A stretch of 64,000 nt of DNA, taken from the NCBI GenBank assembly GCA_903910445.1, contig CAIVZR010000003.1, positions 1-64,000 of the forward strand, in the 5' to 3' direction. Source of the DNA: an uncultured Bacteroidota bacterium. GTDB lineage: Bacteria > Bacteroidota > Bacteroidia > UKL13-3. Shown here in pieces: positions 52,571 through 56,711 of this stretch. Each line of letters begins with the position of its first letter. Position 1 is the stretch's first letter. The notes beneath the pieces were generated by a model. That model made no database searches, had not been told where the DNA came from, and saw nothing but the letters and a program-made list of their open reading frames with translations. The translations under genes and the position numbers were made by a program.

Positions 52571-55183
52571 TTATCCTACCACACGAAACCCAATTTTGCC
52601 TGGTTGGTTCTTACTTGGTTCTTCTTCTAGACTAAAATGTAGTACATCCTCAAGGGTTATTTCTTTCATCATTTCCGGATTTCTATTCGCAGCTGGAAGT
52701 TGTGATAGTCGCAAATTTTGATGCTTCACAGTATCTTCCATAATTTTCCTTACCAAACGACCATTACCGAAATATTTATCTTTAATTTCAAATACATGAG
52801 TGAAGTATTTTGACATGTGAACTCCAGCTTCTTCAGCAAGTTTCAAGCCTTGGTCATCTATAATATGATTTGCGATTTGCATCAGTTCCTCAGGTTTGAA
52901 ATCCTCAAAAACCAATTCACGATCGAATCTGGATTTAAGGCCTGGATTGAATTCAAGGAAGTAATTCATATTGTCGGTATAGCCTGCTGCAATAACAACA
53001 AATTGCCCTCTTCGGTCTTCCATCCTTTTCAATAATGTTTCAACTGCCTCTCTCCCAAAGTCGGAATCGCCACCTTGAGAAAGTGCATAGGCTTCATCAA
53101 TAAAGAGCACACCGCCCATTGCCTTATCAACCATCTCACTGGTTTTTGTTGCTGTTTGACCTACGAAATTTGCCACCAGGCCTTGGCGATCAGTTTCTAC
53201 AAGATGGCCCTTTTCAAGAATTCCTAAGGCTTTAAATATTTGTGCAACAATACGGGCAACAGTGGTTTTACCGGTACCTGGACTGCCTTTGAATACGGTA
53301 TGCAACGAAAATGTTTGACGTACATCCTTGCCAATTTCGCGATAGAATCGAACCAGTTTAACAAGCTCTTCAATTTCCTTCTTTACGATACCCAAGCCAA
53401 TCATTTCTTTGAGCTGATTGAATGACTCTGCTAATAAATCTTCATCAACAGGGATATCAGCCAAGGCACGTTGTTTGGATGCAAATATTTTTTCTACATC
53501 CAGTAACTCAACAGTCATTAGCTGCTCCTTCGTTACTTCCTGAGTATTGGGCAATGCCATCACTCGTAAACCAAGATTCATTTTTGCTTCATCAATCAAA
53601 GAGTTTACATAACGAGCATTACCAAATGTATGCGTACGTGTACGATAAGCTTCTACGAGTTTTTTATAAAGCAATGCTTCCGATTCTGGAGTGAAAACAA
53701 TATTTCTTTTCTTGCTGCAATAGCGAGCTATTTCTTGCAATTCTTGGGGTAAATAATCGGGGAAGTCGAAGTACATATTGAACCTCGATTTTAATCCTGG
53801 ATTAGATCCTAGAAAGTTTGTCATCTCATCAGGATAACCAGCAACCACAATAGCGATATCACCATCACCATCACTCATTTCCTTTATTAAAATTTCGATT
53901 ACCTCTTTCCCAAAATCTTTATTATCGTCGCCAGCACGTGCTAAAGCGTAGGCCTCGTCAACGAACAGAATCCCTCCTTTTGCTTTTTTAATGGCTTCTT
54001 TAACCTTTGGTGCTGTTTGCCCAATATACTCGGCTACCAAATCGGCACGATCTACTTCATGCACATGGCCTTTACTTAGGAGTCCTAAGTTTTTATAAAT
54101 TTTACCAAGCATTAAAGCTACCGTTGTTTTACCTGTACCTGGATTGCCTGTAAATACGGAATGTAAATTTATCTTATCCTCATCCTCAAATCCTTTTTCT
54201 TTTCTAATTTTAAGAAAATTAAGATAGCTACTATATTCTTTAATTTTAGCTTTTATTGTGGCGAGCCCAATCAACTCATCCATTTTATGCATTACGGCAT
54301 CTATCGACTCAGGAATATGCTGTTCTTCATCAGAAGCGGGTTCTGCACCCATAATCTGATGCACATAGGGTTCAAAACTATCTTCATCCGCTTCAATAAA
54401 TTCATCTCCAATATCAAAATGATAACCAGCAACTATTTGGTCCATAAATAGTACTTCTATACTATATTGATCTCCACCCCAAGTGCCTTTATGGTCGCTG
54501 CCCCAACCTACTGTGCAAGTAATGGTGTCGTCGTTCTTATAAACAAACAATAATCGTTCAACACCACCTTTAAGCTGGCCATTATCATTTTTGAAATTAA
54601 AAAACAATTCGCAAGCCCAGTAGTCATATTTCTTAACAAGATTCTCAGCTTGAAATTCAACCCAAATATACCTTGTCTCCGATTGCTTGAAACAATCGTA
54701 ATAAACACGTTTCGATTCATCTACATTTTGATTTGGGCCTTCATATAATCGAATATTTTTAATACGGAAATAAGGATTTGATAATTCAGTTACCATTCCT
54801 TCTTTCTCTACATAAAACGACTTCGATCCAATTAAAACCCCATCCACCCATGCCTCCCAGCGATATGCTCCTCGCTTCCAATAACCCCCAATTTTTTTCA
54901 CTCCCCATCCTTCACGTACAAAAACAACATTTTCATCTTTGGCAATATGTTTTTGAACTTGTAAATCACACATCTCAGTACTCTTACTGTCATAGCACTT
55001 CAAGTTGATCTTAATATCCCAATCTTTGTTGTCGAATAATTTATTAAAAAACGAAAGTTCGCAATAAATAAAGGAACATTCTGTTTCATCAAATACCACT
55101 CGGTATTTCTTTTCATCATTGGCAAGCCATTCATTCGAACCGTATACCTTAATGTCTTTGAATTTATAATTTACCTCACTCAT
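52571..55183 (-). CDS. Double CbxX/CfxQ-type AAA ATPase with duplicated N-terminal beta domain
   Basis: An 870-residue cytoplasmic protein. Residues ~1-275 hold two tandem copies of a beta-rich domain: copy 1 starts YKFKDIKVYGSNEW and ends ...VDGVLIGSKSFYVE; copy 2 starts FRIKNIRLYEG and ends ...FMDQIVAGYHFDIG. Two CbxX/CfxQ (SpoVK-like) AAA modules follow. AAA1: Walker A GNPGTGKTT (~346), Walker B GILFVDEAYA (~408), SRF arginine finger. AAA2: GSPGTGKTT (~633), GVLFIDEAYA (~692), NPGLKSRFDRE. Both appear active. CbbX remodels Rubisco, and EccA acts in type VII secretion, but neither system is present. It is a probable protein remodeller; the target is unknown. Monocistronic. Confidence 0.85.
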   Translation of the reverse strand: MSEVNYKFKDIKVYGSNEWLANDEKKYRVVFDETECSFIYCELSFFNKLFDNKDWDIKINLKCYDSKSTEMCDLQVQKHIAKDENVVFVREGWGVKKIGGYWKRGAYRWEAWVDGVLIGSKSFYVEKEGMVTELSNPYFRIKNIRLYEGPNQNVDESKRVYYDCFKQSETRYIWVEFQAENLVKKYDYWACELFFNFKNDNGQLKGGVERLLFVYKNDDTITCTVGWGSDHKGTWGGDQYSIEVLFMDQIVAGYHFDIGDEFIEADEDSFEPYVHQIMGAEPASDEEQHIPESIDAVMHKMDELIGLATIKAKIKEYSSYLNFLKIRKEKGFEDEDKINLHSVFTGNPGTGKTTVALMLGKIYKNLGLLSKGHVHEVDRADLVAEYIGQTAPKVKEAIKKAKGGILFVDEAYALARAGDDNKDFGKEVIEILIKEMSDGDGDIAIVVAGYPDEMTNFLGSNPGLKSRFNMYFDFPDYLPQELQEIARYCSKKRNIVFTPESEALLYKKLVEAYRTRTHTFGNARYVNSLIDEAKMNLGLRVMALPNTQEVTKEQLMTVELLDVEKIFASKQRALADIPVDEDLLAESFNQLKEMIGLGIVKKEIEELVKLVRFYREIGKDVRQTFSLHTVFKGSPGTGKTTVARIVAQIFKALGILEKGHLVETDRQGLVANFVGQTATKTSEMVDKAMGGVLFIDEAYALSQGGDSDFGREAVETLLKRMEDRRGQFVVIAAGYTDNMNYFLEFNPGLKSRFDRELVFEDFKPEELMQIANHIIDDQGLKLAEEAGVHMSKYFTHVFEIKDKYFGNGRLVRKIMEDTVKHQNLRLSQLPAANRNPEMMKEITLEDVLHFSLEEEPSKNQPGKIGFRVVG

Positions 55184-56213: not shown

Positions 56214-56711
56214 ATGGCCAAGAAAAATAAATTGCTAAATGAACCCGAACTGATTGCATCAGTGAACTGGGCCATTGTAAGTCATCTGAAACCACATCAA
56301 TTGGCTTATCGTATCAATGAAGTTTGCCATTGGAATTTACTACGGCTAAGAAATCTTGGAACAGGAGGGAAGTCGAAAGAAACTGGATTTGCACTATTTA
56401 ATTTTCAAGATCATGAAATGCATCCTGATTTTTATTTGATTACGCTTAAGGATGAGCAACAAGTATTAGTAAAGGATTTGAAGCAATTTGATTACCTTTT
56501 ACAAGCCCGTTTACCCGACGAAGATACCAAATGGGATTCTCAGGGAATTATGAACCAAATTAAGAGTATTGAAAATGTTATTGGAGTATTTGAAATAAAT
56601 CTAGAGACGGTAAAAGCAGCTGATGTATTATATTTTGATAAACAACTGGATAAACTTGAAGTAGAAAAACCAATAGAAAAGCTGGTTAGAAATAAACGAA
56701 TCGTAAAATAA
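56214..56711 (+). CDS. IPExxxVDY-like family protein
   Basis: A 165-residue cytoplasmic protein. The pattern HLKPHQLAYRINEVCHWNLL near the N-terminus, a middle FALFNFQDHEMHPDFYLITL and then VLVKDLKQFDYLLQARLP resemble the IPExxxVDY family restricted to Bacteroidota, with LKQFDY standing where IPExxxVDY is expected; the motif itself is degenerate. NQIKSIENVIGVFEINLETV is the conserved C-terminal part. The family function is unknown. It starts 114 bases after the divergent SDR gene and is followed eight bases later by an rRNA methyltransferase gene, so the two are cotranscribed. Confidence 0.65.
   Translation: MAKKNKLLNEPELIASVNWAIVSHLKPHQLAYRINEVCHWNLLRLRNLGTGGKSKETGFALFNFQDHEMHPDFYLITLKDEQQVLVKDLKQFDYLLQARLPDEDTKWDSQGIMNQIKSIENVIGVFEINLETVKAADVLYFDKQLDKLEVEKPIEKLVRNKRIVK

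Follow-up and report, generated by a model that had tools for sequence, protein, structure and literature searches.

A double-AAA+ variant of the SpoVK-CbbX-EccA clade with a duplicated Ig-like N-terminal domain in Bacteroidota

The window analysed here, a stretch of 64,000 nucleotides from an uncultured Bacteroidota bacterium, carries a gene for an 870-aa protein (52571..55183, minus strand, ATG start) that is a variant of the known SpoVK-CbbX-EccA chaperone clade, and one that is real, well constrained and unstudied. The reading frame is exactly as first noted, and its product joins two Ig-like domains to two AAA+ modules. We favour, with somewhat more confidence than doubt, the interpretation that the protein works as a remodelling chaperone of the cytosol, a double-ring AAA+ machine whose Ig-like pair would recruit one dedicated client or adaptor.

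AAA+ modules, clade membership and naming

Pfam recognises AAA (PF00004) and AAA_lid_6 (PF17866) twice each in the protein and has zero matches within residues 1-290. Pfam, the PDB, module scores and a module tree place the first module, D1, at residues 300-562 (53498..54286, minus strand) and the second, D2, at residues 583-848 (52640..53437, minus strand). Their Walker A motifs are GNPGTGKTT (K352; 54122..54148) and GSPGTGKTT (K639; 53261..53287), respectively, both on the minus strand and found in 91/91 relatives. The motif alignment comprised 91 related loci, some of which are one genome under two identifiers; across it the Walker A lysine, the Walker B Asp/Glu and the arginine finger (SRF) are invariant in D1 and D2, which together with Pfam bears out the earlier note's description of two CbbX/CfxQ-type modules with Walker A, Walker B and SRF in one chain. 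Among the motif residues listed here, the only one that varies is the aromatic position of pore loop 1, which is Y or F in D1 and Y, F or H in D2. Since the catalytic and signature residues are invariant in the 91 loci and the pore loop holds Y/F(/H), both modules look catalytically active, as far as sequence can tell.

SpoVK, CbbX, EccA and their relatives have been described as a clade of dedicated chaperones with narrow clients and without peptidase associations, its signatures being a sensor-1 GY, an Asn upstream of the first arginine finger and a sensor-2 Arg (Delerue et al., 2023; PMC10659427). All three signatures were found in both modules and in 91/91 relatives each: the sensor-1 tyrosine is Y450 in D1 and Y735 in D2, the asparagine N461 and N746, and the sensor-2 arginine (second arginine finger) R524 and R809. 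The asparagine stands six residues before the SRF arginine, while PMC10659427 says four, and the arginine from which the paper counts is uncertain. A variable N-terminal domain and a chain from which any peptidase domain is absent are further features shared with the clade. The protein differs in having two modules per chain and an Ig-like pair, which the text of the paper does not name; the N-terminal domains named there are TPRs, a beta-helix, a beta-prism, a helicase domain and SpoVK's own small N-domain, and such diverse domains are proposed to act as client recruiters (PMC10659427). We found no paper connecting CbbX-type AAA proteins with Bacteroidetes.

The best solved relative of D1 is CbbX (E 7e-59; PDB 3SYK/3ZUH) and that of D2 is EccA1 (E 5e-52; PDB 9LUR). 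CbbX, the red-type Rubisco activase, has the same motifs and aromatic pore loop as D1, but only one module and no Ig-like domain. EccA1, from type VII secretion, carries TPRs ahead of its AAA part, as does the TPR-bearing sister architecture described below, but again has one module. Named identities were also weighed by score. With the SpoVK model TIGR02881 the whole chain reaches 550 bits and passes the NCBIfam cut-off of 423 because two modules are summed; D1 and D2 score 281 each, and each fails alone. The CbbX model TIGR02880 gives 447.5 for the whole chain (equivalog cut-off 459.25) and 242 and 212 for the modules, and the EccA model TIGR03922 gives 432.5 (curated score 466.65) and 210 and 232. 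The known partners of the three proteins were also not found, as had been claimed: the window's genome yielded no Rubisco large subunit in a search that responds in 5 of 14 control genomes, no SpoIVA, and for EccC a single partial match below the cut-off, of a kind also seen in E. coli, bearing in mind that a sub-cut-off or missing match is not proof of gene absence. These scores and partners support none of the three names, and the SpoVK identity offered by the NCBIfam score was rejected. It is likely that such double-AAA proteins will be misnamed stage V sporulation protein K, the label that the NCBI equivalog model would give to the branch, and knowing the branch removes this annotation trap.

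The duplicated N-terminal domain

The N-terminal part consists of a first Ig-like domain, N1 (residues 5-126; 54806..55171, minus strand), and a second, N2 (residues 139-260; 54404..54769, minus strand), both delimited by profile comparison and AlphaFold2. Family profiles of N1 and N2, built from 33 relatives, align in register across 120 columns (hhalign, P = 5e-8). An HMM of N1 only matches 33/33 N2 domains, with a best E of 5e-8 against E 0.065 for the best of 3000 composition-matched shuffled decoys. The repeat is far beyond chance and, judging from these profiles, the duplication is real. In the AlphaFold2 model of the pair (mean pLDDT 92.4) N1 has eight predicted strands (6-16, 30-32, 38-47, 55-64, 70-80, 86-94, 105-113, 116-126) and N2 has eight at equivalent positions (139-149, 161-166, 172-181, 188-199, 204-215, 220-228, 239-246, 249-259). 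The proposal of a tandem duplication into two diverged copies of about 120 aa is thus upheld, and the motifs singled out at the time (a [YF]-x-[FI]-K-[DN]-I-[KR]-x-Y opening, a GWG loop and a closing strand) lie in register between the copies. Across 46 single domains compared, invariance is limited to three residues, a Tyr, a Gly and a Trp.

Modelled alone (pLDDT 93.8), N1 resembles in structure searches the carbohydrate-binding domain of Wzt (TM 0.62-0.66, E 7e-6 to 1e-4), and it also matches the AlkC Ig-like domain and the lipid-tail chaperones UNC119/PDE6D/RhoGDI. Foldseek matches the N1-N2 pair best to tandem Ig/FnIII-like proteins, RbmA ranking first (E 3e-8) with a global TM of about 0.3, a low value that probably comes from a different inter-domain angle. 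By these models N1 and N2 are predicted to be Ig-like beta-sandwiches of seven or eight strands, a known fold, and the suggestion in the earlier note that the N-terminal domain is structurally novel does not hold. The sequence family is new to Pfam although the fold is known: Pfam searches with the whole region, each half and the 46 single domains gave nothing convincing, and neither did a profile search of the PDB. One lead was kept, the family DUF3859 (PF12975), which matches the second copy of an exported relative (L048) over profile positions 13-122 of 123 with E 0.0016-0.0024. This is a sub-threshold match in 1 of the 46 single domains (best 18.2 bits, gathering score 24), which makes DUF3859 a lead only; a genome search with its profile gave zero matches in the controls too and says nothing either way.

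O-antigen is the ligand of the Wzt domain, and lipid tails are those of UNC119/PDE6D. The likeness of N1 to Wzt, AlkC, UNC119, PDE6D and RhoGDI rests on the modelled fold, not on ligand-binding residues or on any sequence kinship detected by the PDB profile search, and it does not show that N1 or N2 binds sugar or lipid.

Rates of change were compared between congeneric species as dN alone, and not as dN/dS, because synonymous sites were saturated. N1 and N2 change slowest (dN about 0.03-0.04), followed by D1 (0.06) and D2 (0.09-0.16), while the linker after N2 (residues 261-299; 54287..54403, minus strand), delimited by the same comparison, changes freely (about 0.32-0.36). Slow N-domains and a fast linker are what would be expected if the pair served as a specific, flexibly tethered platform for binding.

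Distribution, architectures and gene neighbourhoods

Within the bacterium's taxonomic family, 35/35 genomes encode the protein at 57-100% identity, nearly always as a single, full-length copy (one genome has the gene split over contig ends), and the gene is a conserved core gene of that family. Some other families of the same class also carry the four-domain protein, and the named relatives are freshwater or environmental Bacteroidota, including Bacteroidetes bacterium UKL13-3. A tblastn search of plasmids gave matches to the AAA part, with no record spanning 80% of the protein. This distribution bears on the idea of an anti-phage defence ATPase, which was prompted by the AAA part, as this weakly resembles IetA models (PADLOC E 8e-19). 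Such a role is highly improbable and was already disfavoured, given a core gene present in 35/35 family genomes, a score of 59 against a cut-off of 510 with the NCBIfam anti-phage model and no subtilase partner among the window's neighbours.

A scan of 395 Bacteroidota genomes, a partial sample of the phylum, with the single-domain profile A2 gave matches in 46 genomes from 35 genera. The Ig-like domain is a phylum-wide module in Bacteroidota, a feature that one window cannot show. Beyond the class the domain typically occurs once, in a protein of about 1300 aa, behind N-terminal TPRs and together with three AAA modules, the later modules being degenerate in a few cases (L172, L180). The relative L188 (598 aa) combines two Ig-like domains with a single AAA module, which is D2-like. 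In the module tree the D1 modules of the double and the triple form group together (support 0.90), and so do their D2 modules (support 0.83); therefore the D1-D2 tandem is older than the split of the two architectures, and it is the N-terminal part that has been re-built, the motor staying constant.

Further variants were also observed. Two AAA-less versions with two Ig-like copies and a signal-peptide-like start look exported (L177:9475-10308, 278 aa; L186:8816-10798, 661 aa), and two short AAA-less versions were found, one with a hydrophobic segment upstream of the domain (L181:9840-10511) and the other at L182:9720-10178. The single-AAA relative L019 (G052) is a 351-aa frame with an apparent N-terminal membrane anchor, and its module groups with the D2 type.

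No operon partner is constant, and the neighbours differ by sublineage. The window copy is flanked by a convergent CoA-binding gene, with yidC beyond, and, 254 bp upstream, by an NAD(P)-binding gene; no same-strand gene is close enough to suggest an operon and the gene looks monocistronic. A membrane GT2 glycosyltransferase gene lies directly downstream (-1 to 96 bp), followed by rsmG, at 22/91 loci, those of one sublineage. In the class sample every genome has the GT2 gene, which mostly stands beside rsmG without the AAA gene, as at 21/30 loci examined, including families that do not have the AAA gene, so that the adjacency is only a weak hint. As an old association that exists irrespective of the AAA gene, the GT2-rsmG couple was rejected as an operon partner, and its adjacency may be incidental. 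Two small frames were noted in passing: a 126-aa membrane protein with no Pfam match follows the four-domain gene by 2-15 bp at eight family loci (e.g., L063:12609-12986), and a 165-aa frame of the window (56214-56711), upstream of an rRNA methyltransferase-like gene and with no Pfam match at E 1e-5, has homologues that adjoin the gene in congeners.

In the triple form, an ABC ATPase and permease lie directly downstream on the same strand, at 29-59 bp, at 4/13 sister-architecture loci (L176:4879-11206, L178:4769-11330, L180:5637-10395, L189:4719-11169). At three loci the triple-form gene stands at groES-groEL or one gene after it, on the same strand (L172:7060-12974; L180:8104-12491, which is without TPRs; L178:7227-14804). 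These last loci, together with two active rings per chain as in Cdc48/p97 and a weak similarity of the whole chain to CDC48 models, would also suit a general quality-control unfoldase or disaggregase used in the manner of Cdc48 or ClpB, for which the Ig-like pair would be a non-specific platform. We regard this as unlikely, as the clade signatures are those of narrow-client chaperones (PMC10659427), the domain occurs in just 46 of the 395 sampled Bacteroidota genomes, and the strong constraint on the N-domains suits a specific partner.

Another possibility comes from two orthologous second TPR-Ig-AAA3 paralogues (L179:6719-12866, L183:7296-12271), which start 5-6 bp after an 85-aa ORF. Their clusters hold SiaC (PF09345, E 1e-42 and 1e-36), a DUF6272 protein in a SiaB-like position and response regulators, with a SpoIIE phosphatase/response regulator in the L179 cluster. 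These may be SiaABC-like partner switches with an AAA machine as output instead of a diguanylate cyclase, given that unphosphorylated SiaC activates the cyclase SiaD by binding its helical stalk (PMC8457831). Extended to the family, the AAA machine would be a regulated signalling output: it would act on a SiaABC-like partner-switch protein, or be gated by one, and envelope or biofilm physiology would lie downstream. This appears quite unlikely, since the arrangement is confined to one paralogue subfamily in two genomes, and neither the window copy nor its family has such neighbours.

Proposed mechanism and significance

We return to the preferred interpretation, a double-ring chaperone with a dedicated client or adaptor. 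By analogy, six chains would probably assemble into a stack of two rings, D1 and D2, both catalytically active, whose aromatic pore loops would grip a segment or tail of the client while ATP hydrolysis pulls, and the client would be remodelled or activated rather than degraded. We infer the hexamer, the threading, the recruitment and the client, the first two by analogy. Because chains of CbbX and SpoVK hold a single AAA module each, inter-ring behaviour is not established for the clade. The lack of a constant partner gene and of an operon neighbour at the window copy counts against this interpretation. Recruitment would fall to the Ig-like pair, placed at the ring entrance, and in the sister architecture to the TPRs and the one Ig-like domain. 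Substrate recognition, which the earlier note had suggested for the N-terminal pair, remains its most likely use and is in line with the proposal made for the clade (PMC10659427).

That the client belongs to cell-envelope assembly is a guess, more probably wrong than right. The client of SpoVK is MurG, and EccA1 has a role in mycolic acids; on this account envelope biosynthesis is our leading guess, held with low confidence. The GT2 glycosyltransferase (22/91 loci) and the ABC pair (4/13 sister-architecture loci) are weak hints in the same direction. More specifically, by analogy with Wzt and UNC119/PDE6D the Ig-like pair might bind a glycan- or lipid-linked precursor of the envelope, or else a protein that bears such a precursor, which we consider very unlikely. 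If true, a cytosolic double-ring chaperone would link the use of ATP to the assembly of envelope glycans or lipids in Bacteroidota, while the exported copies of the Ig-like domain would work outside.

Very few functions have been solved in the SpoVK-CbbX-EccA clade, each of them a narrow activation task. What is described here is a Bacteroidota branch that is a core gene, with two and sometimes three AAA modules per chain and a candidate recruiter domain outside Pfam, its known fold put to what would be a new use, and this Ig-like recruiter would offer a handle for fishing out the client.
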